Shown here: positions 4,899 through 12,300 of the stretch, piece after piece
Numbering within the stretch: the stretch's first letter is position 1
How the letters are laid out: every line of letters starts with the position of its first letter
NCBI GenBank assembly: GCA_021604505.1
Contig: BQJC01000001.1
Span: forward strand, 496,001-560,000
Source: Nitrospinaceae bacterium
GTDB lineage: Bacteria; Nitrospinota; Nitrospinia; Nitrospinales; VA-1
Direction: 5' to 3'
Length of the DNA: 64,000 nucleotides
Notes under the pieces: model-generated
Database searches by the model: none
What the model was told of the DNA's origin: nothing
Seen by the model: the letters and a program-made list of their open reading frames with translations, nothing else
Position numbers and translations under genes: made by a program

Positions 4899-5106
4899 AT
4901 CCTCAGATTACTCATTCTCTCATCATATTTAAGCGATTAATTCCCCTCAGGCAAAATTTTTTTATTTCGTTGGCTTGATGAAAATCCGTAAAGGAATATG
5001 TGCAGATCTTTGTTTCAAAGGGTGCCGTGAATTTTACATCCATTGAATAGAAAGAAACTGAGAAAGCGAGATCAAATGCGTTGTCCTGCATTTGGAATTT
5101 TTTTAT

Positions 5107-5115
5107 GGGAGGAGT
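5107..5115 (+). promoter_or_regulatory. Strong ribosome binding site deciding the start of the S74 surface protein
   Basis: GGGAGGAGT lies 7 nt upstream of the ATG at 5122. It rules out the in-frame TTG at 5092, which precedes it. Confidence 0.75.
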
Positions 5116-5121
5116 CCAATA

Positions 5122-6972
<1,851 letters not shown>

Positions 6973-7181: not shown

Positions 7182-7649
7182 ATGACCGAACGGTTTACAG
7201 ACAATCAGGATGGCACCATCACCGATAACCAGACCGGGCTCATGTGGCAGGAAACATACGCCTACCCGGAAACCGGAAACTACATCAACTGGTATGACGC
7301 CAATGAGTATGTGCAAAAATTAAATGAGAAGAAACTGGCCGGATATTCGGACTGGCGATTGCCGGATCGGTTGGAAATCCAGAGTTTATACGAGATCGGA
7401 AAACCTTTTAAATCCAGGGGTAAAACGTTTATTCTGCATATCGATCCGGTTTTTGAGTTCAGCTACGGGAGCTGTTTCTGGACCCGCAAAACCCGGCTGT
7501 CCGCCGCGCTGGGATTTGAATTTGATTGCGGGGACATGCACTGGTATCCTCAGGGAAGCGTTTCAGGGTCGGTCCGTGCCGTGCGGCTGGGATTAAACCC
7601 GCGCGTCTTGATTGATCCTGCATGGACCCAGTTACAGGAGATGGGATGA
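7182..7649 (+). CDS. DUF1566 (Lcl C-terminal-like) domain protein
   Basis: A 155-residue protein consisting almost wholly of one DUF1566 domain. It opens FTDNQDGTITDNQTGLMWQ, the hallmark of the family, and continues with YSDWRLPDRLEIQSLY and a closing SGSVRAVRLG. DUF1566 is found at the C-terminus of Legionella collagen-like adhesins and in fimbrial and surface proteins, where it resembles C-type-lectin-like folds. This copy has no signal peptide. The stop codon overlaps the start of the HNH gene as ATGA, so translation of the two is coupled. Its function is unknown. Confidence 0.8.
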   Translation: MTERFTDNQDGTITDNQTGLMWQETYAYPETGNYINWYDANEYVQKLNEKKLAGYSDWRLPDRLEIQSLYEIGKPFKSRGKTFILHIDPVFEFSYGSCFWTRKTRLSAALGFEFDCGDMHWYPQGSVSGSVRAVRLGLNPRVLIDPAWTQLQEMG

Positions 7650-7981
7650 AAACCCGAAGTGGAAAGTCTGCAAGGACCGGCGCTGATGATCGCTCGGCGG
7701 CAGGCGACGAGTTATTCAGAAAAGAAAGGGCCAAGGCCCGTAAACTGCGCAAGTCGCAATGGTGGCTTAAGAAGATCCAGGAAGGGATTTGTCATTATTG
7801 CGGAGGCAAGTTTGTGGCCGATGAATTGACCATGGACCACATCGTGCCGGTTTCGCGCGGCGGCAAAAGCACGAAAGGCAACATCGTCGTTTCCTGTAAA
7901 ACCTGTAACACCAATAAAAAGTATTACACCCCGGCGGAAATCATCCTGCGCGATGATCTGGATAAAGACGTCAGTTTCTGA
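7646..7981 (+). CDS. Small HNH endonuclease-family protein
   Basis: A 111-residue protein with a complete HNH motif: Cys49-x2-Cys52 (CHYC), Asp64-His65 in MDHIVPVSRGG, Asn79 in TKGNIV, Cys84-x2-Cys87 (CKTC) and Asn88. The two CxxC pairs should hold a structural zinc. The N-terminal 45 residues are basic and may bind DNA. I chose the ATG at 7646 because it overlaps the previous stop as ATGA and has CAGGAG 5 nt upstream; an in-frame ATG at 7622 lies inside the DUF1566 gene. No methylase or specificity protein is next to it, so this is not an obvious restriction system. Confidence 0.85.
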   Translation: MKTRSGKSARTGADDRSAAGDELFRKERAKARKLRKSQWWLKKIQEGICHYCGGKFVADELTMDHIVPVSRGGKSTKGNIVVSCKTCNTNKKYYTPAEIILRDDLDKDVSF

Positions 7982-8006: not shown

Positions 8007-8951
8007 TCAGCCTCCTTTCAGGAACTCATCAATCAGCGCCGCGATTTCTTCAGGCGCATCCTCGTGGCAGTAGTGGCCCACTCCCTCTAAACGGTGAACC
8101 GTGCTGTTCGGAAAAGCCTCGTTGAATAACGGAATAAAATGCTTTGCCTGAAGAGTTTGATCGGCCATCCCCCAGAGCGCCAATGCCGGTTTTCGGGAAA
8201 GCGCCCTTGCTGTATGAGTGTTCGCAGGCTCGAATCGATGCGCGCCTTCTGCAAAACCCTTTGCCCAGCCAATGGCCCCAAGGCAATCTTCAGGCTCCTT
8301 GAACGGAGAGCGATAGGCGCGTAGCCAGGATTCAGATATTCTTTCATTTCGCTCGAAGCCATTTAACTTAAGCGTGCTTAGAATATTGTATTCCAGTTGG
8401 CCGAGAACCTCGTCAAGCGTGCCGTTCGAATACGCCCTGGCGATCCATCGAAACCACGGAGAAGCCGCCGCATTGTTTACGAGAGCGTCACCCAAACCAG
8501 GCTGATTAAGGGGGGTGGGGCCGTTGGTGCTGATAATGCGCTTAATGCGGTCCGGATGCCGAAGGGCCGCCCCCATCCCTGCCGGTCCGCCAAAATCGTG
8601 CATGACGAGCGTGATGTCACGCAGATCGAGATCCAGCATGAATCGTTCCAGGTTGTCGATGTGGTCTTGAAGGAGATAGGTTCTGTCCATCGGCGTTTCG
8701 CTTTTACCGAAGCCCATGTGGTCCGGTACGACCACTCGATACCGCGGGGAAAAGGCCTGAATGAGATCCCGGAACAGGTATCCCCAAGTGGGCTCTCCGT
8801 GAAGGGCCAGAACGGTTTCACCTTGACCTTCGTCCACATAGTGCATGCGAAATCCCGGAGCTTCCGTGTACCGGGCTTTAAAAGGCCACGTGTCGTCGAA
8901 AGTCTCCTCCGCCAAAACGGTGGTAGCTGGTGCTTCAAACATTGTTTTCAT
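8007..8951 (-). CDS. Alpha/beta hydrolase, haloalkane dehalogenase-like
   Basis: A 314-residue alpha/beta hydrolase. It has the oxyanion motif HGEPTWGY (51-58), a nucleophile elbow VMHDFGGP with Asp119 instead of serine, and a C-terminal catalytic His in GVGHYCHEDAP. An aspartate nucleophile and HGEPTW point to haloalkane dehalogenases or epoxide hydrolases. The residue after the nucleophile is Phe, where the dehalogenase DhlA has a halide-binding Trp, so the substrate is uncertain. The start at 8951 has AAGGTGG 6 nt upstream; in-frame starts at 8972 and 9029 are possible, but 9029 overlaps the upstream gene. Last gene of the TetR-led operon. Confidence 0.8.
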   Translation of the reverse strand: MKTMFEAPATTVLAEETFDDTWPFKARYTEAPGFRMHYVDEGQGETVLALHGEPTWGYLFRDLIQAFSPRYRVVVPDHMGFGKSETPMDRTYLLQDHIDNLERFMLDLDLRDITLVMHDFGGPAGMGAALRHPDRIKRIISTNGPTPLNQPGLGDALVNNAAASPWFRWIARAYSNGTLDEVLGQLEYNILSTLKLNGFERNERISESWLRAYRSPFKEPEDCLGAIGWAKGFAEGAHRFEPANTHTARALSRKPALALWGMADQTLQAKHFIPLFNEAFPNSTVHRLEGVGHYCHEDAPEEIAALIDEFLKGG

Positions 8952-8995
8952 GATTTCCACCTTTTCATTCATTCTATTCCGCAAGTTGTTGGGAG

Positions 8996-9682
8996 TTATT
9001 CCGCTGCAACCGTCTCGGTTTGATTCCATTTCGCCTCATTTTGTTCAATGAGATGATCAACCAGTTTGGGAACGGCTCTGTGAGCGTTTTCGACGGATTG
9101 CCTATGTCTCTCGTCTCCAAACTCCTGGTATTCAATTGCGATAAGATGATCTTCTACTGCCCCCAGATATTTCGAACAGGTTCGGATATGAGGTTCCAGA
9201 TGATTCTTATCTTCCCGCACACCCCCCGGCTCAAAGCCGAACTCACCGCGAGAGGAGAGAATAACCAAATGTTTTCCCGACAAAATGGGCTCAAGCGGCT
9301 CATCACCGCGCGTCAAATCGAACGTGAATGTTTTGTTGATACGGATAACCTGGTCAAACCACGCTTTCAGCGCGGACGGCATCCCATAGTTATACATGGG
9401 CACCCCCAGTAAGATGATATCTGCATCTTCAACTTCCTCGATGAGAGTGTCAGAAAGTTGTAGAGTGGCCTGCTGGGTTTTGGTTCTTTCCTTTTCAGGG
9501 GTGAAGGCCGCGGCGATCCAGTTTTCACTGACTGCAGGTGGTGGATTAAGGCCAATATCACGTTGGACGATCTCATCGGCAGGGCGTTGTTTCAGCCATT
9601 CATCGATAAAGCGTTGGGAGAGCCCACGGGTCAGGGACCGTTCTTTCCGTGCACTGACATCGATGCGAAGAATTGTTGTCAT
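8996..9682 (-). CDS. FMN-dependent NAD(P)H quinone/azo reductase (AzoR-like)
   Basis: A flavodoxin-like protein of 228 residues. It begins with the phosphate-loop strand ILRIDVSARKERSLTR, has the FMN-binding PMYNYGMPSALKAWFDQV, and a later SSRGEFG loop, the arrangement of AzoR enzymes, which reduce quinones and azo dyes by two electrons. The ATG at 9682 is preferred because AAGGTG lies 6 nt upstream; a GTG three codons earlier is in frame. It sits 44 nt upstream of the dehalogenase-like gene. Such reductases are often controlled by quinone-responsive TetR or MarR repressors, which fits the operon's first gene. Confidence 0.88.
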   Translation of the reverse strand: MTTILRIDVSARKERSLTRGLSQRFIDEWLKQRPADEIVQRDIGLNPPPAVSENWIAAAFTPEKERTKTQQATLQLSDTLIEEVEDADIILLGVPMYNYGMPSALKAWFDQVIRINKTFTFDLTRGDEPLEPILSGKHLVILSSRGEFGFEPGGVREDKNHLEPHIRTCSKYLGAVEDHLIAIEYQEFGDERHRQSVENAHRAVPKLVDHLIEQNEAKWNQTETVAAE

Positions 9683-9743
9683 GTCACTCACCTTTGATTA
9701 AGGATAAATTATTAAAAATAAGGCCTTCCATTTCTCGTCAACT

Positions 9744-10127
9744 TTATGCTTTAGGAGGATGCATGTGGAAAACCTTGTTCATGATTTTCCACTCGCCGTC
9801 GATTTTTAGTAGCGTGAACAAGTCGGTGAACCGGTGGCCGGTCCAGTTGTCGAGTTCCAGTCGTACGGTGGCGACAGTGTCGACGAGGTCGATGCTGGCA
9901 ACCCAGGCTCGCAGTCCCGTCGCCGGGCCGTTTTCATCATTCCAGTCGTACAGCTTCTGGATGGGACCCGCGATCAGGTCATTACCAACATAACCGAAGA
10001 GGGTCGCGTCCCTGTGAAAGGCGGGTTTCATGTCCTCGCTTTTGCCGGACCGGGCTCCGTCGATGTAATGTTGGATAACCGTGCCGATCACGTCGTATTT
10101 GCTCAAGTATGTGGATGCATGGTTCAT
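9744..10127 (-). CDS. NTF2-like / putative lumazine-binding domain protein
   Basis: A 127-residue protein of the NTF2/SnoaL superfamily, closest in feel to the 'putative lumazine-binding' group: an N-terminal helix with VIQHYIDGARSG, the strand LFGYVGNDLIAG, and C-terminal strands VRLELDNWTGHRFTDLFTLLKIDGEWKIMNKVFH. These small cone-shaped domains bind hydrophobic ligands or act as simple enzymes. It lies between a membrane protein gene and the AzoR-like gene in the TetR-led operon, which suggests a role with the same substrate; the reaction is unknown. Confidence 0.75.
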   Translation of the reverse strand: MNHASTYLSKYDVIGTVIQHYIDGARSGKSEDMKPAFHRDATLFGYVGNDLIAGPIQKLYDWNDENGPATGLRAWVASIDLVDTVATVRLELDNWTGHRFTDLFTLLKIDGEWKIMNKVFHMHPPKA

Positions 10128-10224
10128 GACTTGTCTCCCTCGCTCAAAGTGCGGTTTAAAAACAATAATACCGGTTAGTCAGCTTCCAAAAAACTTCCTT
10201 ACAAAACCGCGTCATTGTTTTGAT

Positions 10225-10626
10225 TTACACAGTGATCGCAGGTGAACGGTGACCTTTCCAATACCGGACGACATCCACCGTATCGATTACCAGCGAAATG
10301 CTATCGAGTACGATGACCGCAAGCAGCCAATAATAAAAAGAACCCCCTTCAATGGTCTGACCCAATCGCGACCAGAGCCAGGGAACCGTGAAAAACCATG
10401 GGATATGGCCCAATCCAAGAAGCTTGACATAGCCAAACTTCGCGAACAGGGTCATCATGATGACCATGCCGACCCCGGCTCCAGCGAGGACCACGGTTGC
10501 TTCCGGTGTGCCCAGAAAGAAAAATGGCAAAACTAGGTTCGCGGCCACCAGAAAAACCATCCATACCTGCCAGGGCTTGGTCATGGTGAGAATACCTTTG
10601 TTAAATCCAATCAGTATCTTGAACAT
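10225..10626 (-). CDS. Small four-helix integral membrane protein
   Basis: A 133-residue protein with about four hydrophobic segments (for example WMVFLVAANLVLPFFFLG, VVLAGAGVGMVIMMTLF, IPWFFTVPWLW and YYWLLAVIVLDSISLVI). No family was recognised. The ATG at 10626 is preceded by AAAGGAGG at ideal spacing, which rejects longer in-frame forms that reach into the upstream gene. It belongs to the TetR-led operon. Confidence 0.75.
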   Translation of the reverse strand: MFKILIGFNKGILTMTKPWQVWMVFLVAANLVLPFFFLGTPEATVVLAGAGVGMVIMMTLFAKFGYVKLLGLGHIPWFFTVPWLWSRLGQTIEGGSFYYWLLAVIVLDSISLVIDTVDVVRYWKGHRSPAITV

Positions 10627-10643
10627 GAGTTGCCTCCTTTTCG

Positions 10644-11228
10644 TCAGAATGAACCTATTAGTTCCTGATCCAATTCCACCCTTCCTTGCTGGATTTCTTC
10701 TTTCGTGTATCTTGGTGTGATGTGTTGCGGACAATTCCAGTCAAATGCCTGGACATTCAAAACAATAATGCGCTCAATAGCCGCCGGGTAATCCGGCATC
10801 GCAACTTTTGCCAGCAGCTCGGGATGATCTTGAGCGTCGAGAACTTCCGCCTCCGCCCAGATTTTTAGCCGTTGCTGTTTGGTGTAATCCATGAGGAAGA
10901 GAACCGTCTTTCTCGTGGCGTTAAAGTTGCCGGTGCTGATGTATTGTCCGTTGCCGCGAAAATCCGCAAAAGCCAGAAGATTTTCATCGAGTGATTTCAA
11001 AAAACCTCTAGGGCCGCCACGGAATTGCATATAGGGCCATCCATTTTCTCCCAAAGAGGCCATATAAAATCCGTCCCTGTTCTGGATGTAGCTTTTTTCC
11101 TGCCAGGTGAGCCTGTTACGGAACGCGTTTTTTTCTTCCATCTTTTGATAAGGCGCACGGGTGCCGTATTTCTCCTGCATTTTTTTGACACTGTCTGTGA
11201 ATGCGTATTCCATAAAATTTTTGGCCAT
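10644..11228 (-). CDS. Pyridoxamine-5'-phosphate-oxidase-like FMN-binding protein
   Basis: A 194-residue protein with the split-barrel flavin-binding fold. Helices come first, then the beta-barrel motif FYMASLGENGWPYMQFRGG, LAFADFRGNGQYISTGN and KTVLFLMDYTKQQRLKIWAEA. This matches the large PNPOx-like group of flavin or F420 reductases and not the vitamin B6 enzyme itself. It probably reduces or binds a small aromatic compound. It is third in the TetR-led operon, 57 nt after the DsrE-like gene. Confidence 0.85.
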   Translation of the reverse strand: MAKNFMEYAFTDSVKKMQEKYGTRAPYQKMEEKNAFRNRLTWQEKSYIQNRDGFYMASLGENGWPYMQFRGGPRGFLKSLDENLLAFADFRGNGQYISTGNFNATRKTVLFLMDYTKQQRLKIWAEAEVLDAQDHPELLAKVAMPDYPAAIERIIVLNVQAFDWNCPQHITPRYTKEEIQQGRVELDQELIGSF

Positions 11229-11285
11229 GATTTGGTTCCTTTCCTTAAATAAGCCCCCCGCATATCGCAGGGGGCCTATGTGATT

Positions 11286-11648
11286 TCAGAATGTGAGGAC
11301 ATTGAACCCCTGTTCCTGCAGGTTTCGAAAACTGGTGAGACCGTTTGTGTTGGGGACCGGGTTGTCCCTGATCAAATCGTACCCGGAAGTGTCTCCGCCA
11401 AAAACATCCGCACAGCCGCAGGAGATGCCCTGAATCTTGTCTTCCACCGCTTTAAACAACTCATGGGCAGGGTGGTCCTCCGCTTGCAGGACTTCCGGCC
11501 ATCGGGTTCCTGCTCCCTGGAAGAGGATCGACACTTCCTCTCCCGCTTGCTTGTAGTCGTAAGCGGCGGCCAGGGCGTTAAAGACACGGCCTAAAGATTC
11601 TTCCGATCCGTTTTTTGGGTCTGAAAAAATAGTGATGGCAGTTTTCAT
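11286..11648 (-). CDS. DsrE/DsrF-like family protein
   Basis: A 120-residue cytoplasmic protein with the DsrE fold: ITIFSDPKNGSEESLGRVFNAL at the N-terminus, the strand VSILFQGAGTRW, and the cysteine motif GISCGCADVFGG. DsrE relatives carry persulfides in sulfur metabolism, but many, like this one beside a TetR repressor, are of unknown role. Its start overlaps the tetR stop as ATGA, so translation is coupled. Confidence 0.85.
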   Translation of the reverse strand: MKTAITIFSDPKNGSEESLGRVFNALAAAYDYKQAGEEVSILFQGAGTRWPEVLQAEDHPAHELFKAVEDKIQGISCGCADVFGGDTSGYDLIRDNPVPNTNGLTSFRNLQEQGFNVLTF

Positions 11649-12241
11649 GATTTGTTACTCCTTTTGGTTTTGGGTTTTTTTGAATCAAACGTTAATAATT
11701 GCGGTAAATTTTGAAGGACCCGCGCAAACGGTTTGGTGTCCCCGTTGGCTCGTGCCATGACCAGGGCTCCCTGGATACCGATCAACGCTTCTTCAGCTCG
11801 TTCCTTTGCAACCGCCGGGCTCAAACCGGCTGCGCGCGCGACACGAACGAGCGCTCCGAGCCAGACGGTGAACGACCTCTCGATATGCTGACGAATGGCG
11901 CCACCCCCGTCTCCCAGCGATAGCGAATCCAGTAGACAGGAACGGCGTCCTCCGCCATAGAAATCGCTGAGCCGTTTCGACATTTCCCGAATGCGGGACG
12001 AGGGATCCCCAGACCCGGTCAGGGGCGCCAGGATGTGAAACTCGAACCAATCGTCGGCGCGTTTAAGAACGGCCCCGGCCATTTCTTCTTTTCCGCCTGG
12101 AAAGCGGTGGTAAAGACTGGCGCGCTTGAGCCCGGTCGCTTCCGCAATCCGGCTGAGGCTGGCGCCTTCGTAGCCGTGCAGACGGAACACTTCCGTCAGC
12201 CGGTCCATCAAGTCATCTTCATCGATTTTTCTGGCGGGCAT
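11645..12241 (-). CDS. TetR-family transcriptional repressor (LmrA/YxaF-like)
   Basis: A 198-residue regulator. The N-terminal helix-turn-helix reads YEGASLSRIAEATGLKRASLYHRFPGGKEEM (residues 24-54, given in part), with the SLYHRFPGGKE signature of the LmrA/YxaF branch. The ligand domain has a single cysteine, Cys102, in RRSCLLDSL. It is the first gene of a seven-gene operon, and a 26-bp near-perfect palindrome covers its promoter, so it very probably represses itself and the operon. The reductases and dehalogenase-like enzyme downstream suggest a quinone or halogenated aromatic as inducer; this is inference. GGAGG precedes the ATG at good spacing. Confidence 0.92.
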   Translation of the reverse strand: MPARKIDEDDLMDRLTEVFRLHGYEGASLSRIAEATGLKRASLYHRFPGGKEEMAGAVLKRADDWFEFHILAPLTGSGDPSSRIREMSKRLSDFYGGGRRSCLLDSLSLGDGGGAIRQHIERSFTVWLGALVRVARAAGLSPAVAKERAEEALIGIQGALVMARANGDTKPFARVLQNLPQLLTFDSKKPKTKRSNKS

Positions 12242-12270
12242 TTTGGATCCTCCAAATTTAAGAATGGAAG

Positions 12271-12300
12271 TATTTTAACGAACGTTCGGTAAAATAGCAA
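12271..12300 (-). promoter_or_regulatory. TetR operator overlapping the operon promoter
   Basis: The halves TATTTTAACGAAC (12271-12283) and GTTCGGTAAAATA (12284-12296) form an inverted repeat with 12 of 13 pairs matched and no spacer. On the minus strand the -35 TTGCTA (12295-12300) and -10 TAAAAT (12272-12277) are exactly 17 nt apart with the palindrome between and over them. A bound repressor would block the polymerase directly. Confidence 0.85.

Follow-up and report, generated by a model that had tools for sequence, protein, structure and literature searches.

We describe a seven-gene operon in a Nitrospinaceae bacterium (phylum Nitrospinota), located at positions 8007 to 12300 of a 64,000-nucleotide (nt) stretch of contig BQJC01000001.1, which we refer to as the window. 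The operon is led by a gene for a TetR-family repressor and probably serves as an inducible response to electrophiles or oxidants (thiol stress) that works like nemR-nemA-gloA of Escherichia coli, a reading to which we assign a probability of about 55%. Its operator recurs in distant phyla beside repressors of the same kind, in part with the same genes, which suggests a widely shared, apparently undescribed defense against reactive chemicals. We put at roughly even odds the broader proposal that the repressor represents a so far undescribed TetR subfamily of redox switches, with a single conserved cysteine and a single conserved 20-bp operator, present in Nitrospinota and Bacteroidota and, with degenerate sites, also in Alphaproteobacteria. 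This subfamily would control a thiol/flavin stress core, made up of a DsrE-family protein and a PNPOx-like flavoprotein (PPOX), plus exchangeable detoxification enzymes, and in Nitrospinota the core would otherwise be under a sigma-54 activator. Given that TetR operators mostly diverge fast, a single 20-bp site kept across phyla with repressors of 32 to 41% identity and partly shared targets would allow the regulon to be read directly from genomes. The operon also offers a first view of how Nitrospinota, relatives of marine nitrite oxidizers, may cope with reactive chemicals.

Features of the operon, in the direction of transcription:
12272-12300, minus strand: sigma-70-type promoter TTGCTA-17-TAAAAT, its spacer filled by the operator (promoter scan; layout repeated in three other Nitrospinota genomes)
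12271-12296, no strand assigned: operator palindrome, 26 bp, with the conserved 20-bp core TTTACCGAACGTTCGKTAAA at 12274-12293 (sequence and cross-genome scans)
11645-12241, minus strand: TetR-family repressor, 198 aa, sole cysteine C102 (Pfam TetR_N and TetR_C_13_2 above cut-off)
11286-11648, minus strand: DsrE-family protein, 120 aa, invariant Cys79 (Pfam DsrE above cut-off)
11249-11279, minus strand: GC-rich RNA hairpin just past the dsrE stop codon, which may act as a leaky terminator or protect the 3' end of the mRNA (z = -3.8)
10644-11228, minus strand: PPOX, PNPOx-like split-barrel flavoprotein, 194 aa (PNPOx_N below cut-off; predicted fold)
10225-10626, minus strand: small membrane protein, probably with four transmembrane segments by inspection, no Pfam family (homologues in sister loci)
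9744-10127, minus strand: NTF2-like/Lumazine_bd_2 protein (Pfam, 91.6 bits; PDB relatives 3duk and 3blz)
8996-9682, minus strand: FMN-dependent NADH-azoreductase/quinone reductase of the AzoR1 type (Pfam; PDB 3keg and 3lt5, E ~1e-44)
8007-8951, minus strand: alpha/beta hydrolase with an Asp nucleophile (D119-D264-H293) and a haloalkane-dehalogenase-like fold, Phe120 at the halide-Trp position (Pfam, NCBIfam, alignment and structure match)

The open reading frames and domain searches agreed with a preliminary description of this DNA in that the seven genes (12241-8007) lie on one strand, belong to the families it named and include an ATGA overlap between tetR and dsrE (11645-11648). The gaps that follow dsrE measure, in order, approximately 57, 17, 97, 61 and 44 nt, and a promoter scan of the operon interior found no second minus-strand promoter. 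A single TetR-led operon with a redox/detoxification theme, as first described, is thus supported.

An operator shared across phyla

The palindrome, whose arms are 94% complementary, occupies the 17-nt spacer of the promoter as had been reported. Our phylum comparison covered 77 Nitrospinota genomes, all of which were scanned for the 20-bp operator TTTACCGAACGTTCGGTAAA with 0 to 1 mismatch. It occurred as one copy in each of four genomes and always preceded an orthologous tetR, and because of this recurrence we regard the palindrome as well beyond what chance would be expected to produce. In the three other loci, the TetR is 79 to 80% identical to that of the window, TTTACCGAACGTTCGGTAAA stands at the equivalent position, and the -35/17-nt/-10 layout is retained, with TTGACA or TTGACT paired with TAAATT or TAAAGT. 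Two more Nitrospinota loci encode a divergent TetR (38 to 39% identical), and there ACCGATCGTTCGGT precedes DsrE. When the 3.64-Mb host genome was scanned with up to three mismatches, no operator copy was found beyond the single operon site, so control looks local. Sites with three mismatches were about as frequent as those of a reversed-pattern control and were counted as background unless they adjoined DsrE or tetR, as in genome G025. The helix-turn-helix domain of the repressor, together with a palindromic operator that overlaps its own promoter and is conserved with the gene, marks it as a probable TetR autorepressor with a local operator. The sequence ACCGAACGTTCGGT did not turn up in the papers listed by a search of the open-licence PubMed Central (PMC) literature.

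The search for sites in other phyla covered the genomes of PPOX loci plus 342 Cytophagales. Operator copies with 0 to 2 mismatches adjoin TetRs 32 to 41% identical to the host's in Dyadobacter, Leptobacterium, Roseivirga, Mucilaginibacter and other Cytophagales (Bacteroidota). The near-perfect sites from this search nearly all adjoin a TetR of this subfamily, and several loci carry two copies, one before tetR and one before the next gene. In Dyadobacter psychrotolerans (L123/L189), a perfect 20-mer lies upstream of tetR-PPOX, and its TetR is 36% identical to that of the host. The genes that follow an operator-flanked TetR are DsrE-PPOX-CMD-DUF1348 (L184), a hydrolase and PPOX (L180), a hydrolase (L185, L186) or PPOX (L181, L189), and in L149 the operator lies 368 bp upstream of PPOX with no tetR nearby. 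On Sphingomonas and Methylocystis plasmids (Alphaproteobacteria), degenerate copies in the tetR-DsrE intergenic regions flank tetR and DsrE-PPOX. The TetR subfamily is also present in 15 of 121 Rhizobiales genomes. Taken across these genomes, the operator and its regulator appear to move together between phyla, in a link that we judge to be real, not exclusive.

Two further types of locus were seen. In L183 and L187, the TetR beside this operator is followed by a FabF-like beta-ketoacyl synthase, a poor fit to a detoxification theme. In small alphaproteobacterial genomes (1.3 to 1.4 Mb; L193, L194 and L195), a TetR of the subfamily lies between gltX-like and cysS-like genes, with no PPOX, DsrE or recognizable operator.

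The putative sensor cysteine

C102 is the only cysteine in the host TetR. In an alignment of 19 TetRs of 32 to 80% identity, neither this residue nor the recognition-helix core SLYH-FP-GK varies, whereas most of the C-terminal domain does. A profile comparison (hhalign) aligned C102 with Cys106 of NemR (PDB 4yze), so that the repressor has a cysteine at the position expected of a NemR-like redox switch. NemR Cys106 has been reported as a reactive-chlorine sensor that acts by bonding to Lys175 (PMC7464077). Thiol oxidation, at different cysteines, reportedly inactivates a further TetR, RcrR (PMC9600549). The host TetR is not a member of the NemR family proper, given that its nearest solved relative is YxaF, NemR is a distant profile match and the operon contains no nemA or gloA. 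We infer that C102 may have a sensing role.

The kinship with YxaF raises the possibility that the repressor senses a ligand, as LmrA/YxaF (QdoR) of Bacillus subtilis does. Its pocket would then bind a specific, nonreactive aromatic or flavonoid-like molecule that the operon detoxifies or modifies, and C102 would be structural only. The C-terminal Pfam domain is indeed LmrA/YxaF-like, and most TetR regulators are ligand-gated. However, C102 has stayed invariant in the 19 sequences despite the variable C-terminal domain, and the targets differ among genomes while the operator is constant, a pattern more readily explained by a general stress cue than by a single ligand. We consider ligand sensing unlikely, at somewhat better than one chance in five.

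The DsrE-PPOX core and its exchangeable partners

A near or distant PPOX relative is present in 46 of the 77 Nitrospinota genomes and a DsrE relative in 22. PPOX accompanies DsrE in 21 of the 22 DsrE loci, usually as its neighbor. The other partners across these loci are more scattered: SDR (9 loci), membrane protein (7), NTF2 (6), thioredoxin (6) and DUF5069 (5), followed by an isochorismatase-fold protein (4) and hydrolase, azoreductase, YHS and DUF1348 (3 each). Among the closest loci are L062 (divergent TetR; DsrE-PPOX-membrane protein-NTF2-AzoR), L043 (TetR-YHS-DsrE-PPOX-membrane protein-DUF5069-SDR-NTF2) and L052 (TetR-DsrE-YHS-PPOX-NTF2-hydrolase). Conservation of the gene order outside close relatives therefore holds for the DsrE-PPOX core; the full seven-gene set and order was not found at any other locus compared. 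Homologues of the small membrane protein, for which we found neither a Pfam family nor a plasmid match, repeatedly stand beside PPOX in Nitrospinota (L043, L045, L047, L055, L057, L062).

The PPOX family is widespread beyond Nitrospinota. DsrE immediately precedes PPOX in Acidobacteria, Planctomycetota, Roseiflexaceae, Betaproteobacteria and Bacteroidota and on the Sphingomonas and Methylocystis plasmids, and other PPOX loci outside the phylum have CMD, DUF1348, GST or LysR as partners. Because the pairing is kept in and beyond the phylum while the other genes vary, DsrE-PPOX is the stable unit and the remaining enzymes are an interchangeable toolkit. Partner enzymes of the thiol/electrophile type across the loci include thioredoxin, nitroreductase, GST, CMD/AhpD-type proteins, azoreductase and SDR; a CMD-family protein, RclX, belongs to the HOCl/HOSCN response of Pseudomonas aeruginosa (PMC7950407). 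Among the open-licence PMC papers listed, none combines DsrE family protein, pyridoxamine and TetR, or the greater part of the set CMD, pyridoxamine, DUF1348, LysR and stress. TetR-controlled electrophile operons are already known; a regulator subfamily of this kind, whose operator recurs across phyla and whose target core is DsrE-PPOX, is, as far as this literature hints, apparently undescribed. DsrE-PPOX pairs are common and have apparently not been described as a unit; the shared operator would make their function testable in cultivable hosts such as Dyadobacter and Mucilaginibacter.

The DsrE protein scored 29.9 bits against Pfam PF02635 (cut-off, 22.7), which places it in the DsrE/DsrF family, and all 18 relatives compared, which come from several phyla, keep its mid-chain Cys79. 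The naming of PPOX as a PNPOx-like flavoprotein was not borne out by its Pfam PNPOx_N score, which fell below the gathering cut-off, but was by its predicted structure (pLDDT, 76), a PNPOx-type split barrel with Foldseek matches to 2htd, HupZ and Rv2074 (E ~1e-5 to 1e-7; best, 3e-7). These structural matches, which include HupZ and Rv2074, an F420-dependent biliverdin reductase, bind FMN, F420 or heme, so that PPOX may use any of the three as its cofactor. A ferredoxin-type reductase comes after a PPOX-domain protein in Leptobacterium, an arrangement that suggests redox chemistry. The azoreductase has a Flavodoxin_2 fold, and its best PDB relatives (3keg, 3lt5) are annotated "FMN-dependent NADH-azoreductase 1," consistent with an AzoR assignment.

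Within the operon, the stable hairpin between dsrE and PPOX, which the preliminary description had missed, recurs as a feature of the core. Of 24 dsrE copies, 20 have a strong hairpin behind the stop codon, versus approximately one in six of the other intra-operon gaps (p = 5e-9). Those of the window, L035 and L043-L062 mostly lack a good U-tract. Their stems are nearly all G-C and the MAFFT alignment was poor, so we claim no covariation. Such a hairpin would allow output of dsrE in excess of the genes downstream. A -24/-12 sigma-54 promoter (TGGCAC/T-N5-TGCT) precedes DsrE in 10 Nitrospinota loci, and most of these loci have an adjoining, divergent PAS-AAA-type sigma-54 activator. The same DsrE-PPOX core thus appears to be wired to two unrelated control systems in Nitrospinota, TetR and a sigma-54 activator. 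The sigma-54 sites lie ~83 to 166 nt before DsrE in L044, L045, L047, L050 and L056-L061, and the PAS region of the activator has a His/Cys-rich stretch, HHSRADG...CPIY. In L052 and L055, a sigma-54-type cluster (ISOCH-DsrE-TRX) and a TetR-type cluster stand in tandem with two different DsrE paralogues, the second without a hairpin.

This second form of control bears on whether the operon responds to reactive sulfur. DsrE would then act as a sulfur carrier, the operon would sense or handle persulfide, polysulfide or sulfane sulfur, and the sigma-54 regulator of the sister loci would play the role of a FisR-like sulfur sensor. The divergent activator with its -24/-12 sites fits this explanation, as do the presence of DsrE with its invariant Cys79 in every core locus and the frequency of thioredoxin as a partner. 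Against these points, sulfide:quinone reductase, persulfide dioxygenase and rhodanese were not recognized among the recurrent neighbor clusters, and azoreductase, nitroreductase and hydrolases would have no obvious role. We therefore regard a reactive-sulfur response as improbable, and more so than ligand sensing.

The hydrolase has an invariant D119-D264-H293 triad, the Asp/acid/His arrangement of haloalkane dehalogenases, and its model best matches the haloalkane dehalogenase subfamily III enzyme DhmeA (8ooh/8ckp; ~30% identity). In all five close relatives (Nitrospinota, Rhizobium, Burkholderia, Embleya), Phe120 stands beside the nucleophile at the position of the halide-binding Trp, and NCBIfam scores of 137 to 150 bits are far under the cut-offs of 241 to 466. 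We rejected the dehalogenase label on these two grounds. Epoxide hydrolases carry two conserved cap tyrosines; in the sequence alignment of the five relatives, none of the cap-region tyrosines is invariant. The operator-adjacent hydrolases of Bacteroidota are of a different subfamily, with an MDYGAP nucleophile motif and 21 to 25% identity.

The preliminary description had suggested that the genes handle a single compound, quinone-like or a halogenated aromatic, step by step. An azoreductase and a haloalkane-dehalogenase-like fold in one operon might favor such a pathway, but we consider it very improbable given the missing halide-binding Trp, the lack of a ring-cleaving enzyme or recognizable transporter in the operon, and an interchangeable accessory set. 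We rejected a single halogenated-aromatic pathway because homologous operons retain DsrE and PPOX but swap SDR, thioredoxin, isochorismatase-fold, YHS, DUF5069, DUF1348, nitroreductase, CMD and GST proteins, so that these enzymes do not make up the steps of a single set pathway.

We favor an electrophile/oxidant response that would proceed as follows. In the uninduced state, a TetR dimer bound to TTTACCGAACGTTCGKTAAA between the observed -35 and -10 boxes would block transcription of its own operon. A reactive electrophile or oxidant (a quinone, dicarbonyl, hypohalous acid or perhaps reactive sulfur species) would modify C102, and the repressor would leave the DNA. The operon would then be transcribed, TetR and DsrE first, and the hairpin seen after dsrE may lower or partition expression of the rest. 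Judging from their families, DsrE could carry or buffer sulfur/thiols through Cys79, the azoreductase and PPOX, a probable flavoprotein like it, could reduce the offending compounds, and the NTF2-like protein and hydrolase may act on the resulting products. The core would consist of regulator, DsrE and PPOX, with the remaining enzymes as the exchangeable toolkit.

Several points weigh against an electrophile/oxidant response. The hhalign probability for the NemR link is moderate (88%), and a Cys at the aligned position is not rare in TetR proteins (3on4 has one). Only 5 of 17 Rhizobiales TetR matches have PPOX, DUF1348 or GST within 1.5 kb, and some TetR relatives have unrelated neighbors, namely the FabF-like gene (L183, L187) and the gltX/cysS-like genes (L193-L195). 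We found no experiments on any member of the system, and the sequence does not appear to fix the inducer.

Outside the operon, a plus-strand HNH gene (7622-7981) converges on its end, and a gene for a PPIC-type protein lies upstream. By inspection, positions 5092-6972 (plus strand) of the window probably encode a surface/adhesin protein, with a collagen-like Gly-X-Y stretch, repeated NTTG motifs, a long Asp run and an intramolecular-chaperone-like C terminus. Elsewhere in the same genome (L002, 278-2382; C1, ~1230837-1232941), a thiolase-like gene beside an HDWGG alpha/beta hydrolase resembles, by inspection only, an OleA-OleB pair of the long-chain olefin/beta-lactone pathway.

Comparison with known systems

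The operon resembles nemR-nemA-gloA in its TetR autorepressor, in the Cys at the same aligned position (C106) and in the flavin reductase and detoxification genes downstream in the operon. The regulators are of different TetR subfamilies, however, with six cysteines in NemR versus one here, and the targets are not orthologous: an OYE-type reductase and a glyoxalase there, in contrast to DsrE, PPOX, azoreductase and hydrolase here. In the CifR-morB-cif system of Pseudomonas, a TetR repressor controls a flavin oxidoreductase and an Asp-nucleophile epoxide hydrolase. The window operon likewise places a TetR over a flavoprotein reductase and an Asp-nucleophile alpha/beta hydrolase, but CifR is only a weak PDB match to the host TetR, its system lacks DsrE, PPOX and NTF2, and the hydrolase is of a different subfamily. 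LmrA/YxaF (QdoR) is the closest solved TetR by sequence, yet YxaF lacks a Cys at the position aligned with C102, and the operator and targets of LmrA/YxaF differ from those of the host TetR. DhmeA, the best structural match to the hydrolase, differs in that the hydrolase has Phe120 for the Trp next to the nucleophile and HGEP for HGNP. In the Firmicutes quinone-stress regulons (YodB, MhqR/QsrR), genes of the azoreductase, hydrolase and nitroreductase type are induced by quinone-like electrophiles; their regulators are MarR-type, whereas the operon described here has a TetR and a DsrE-PPOX core that those regulons lack.

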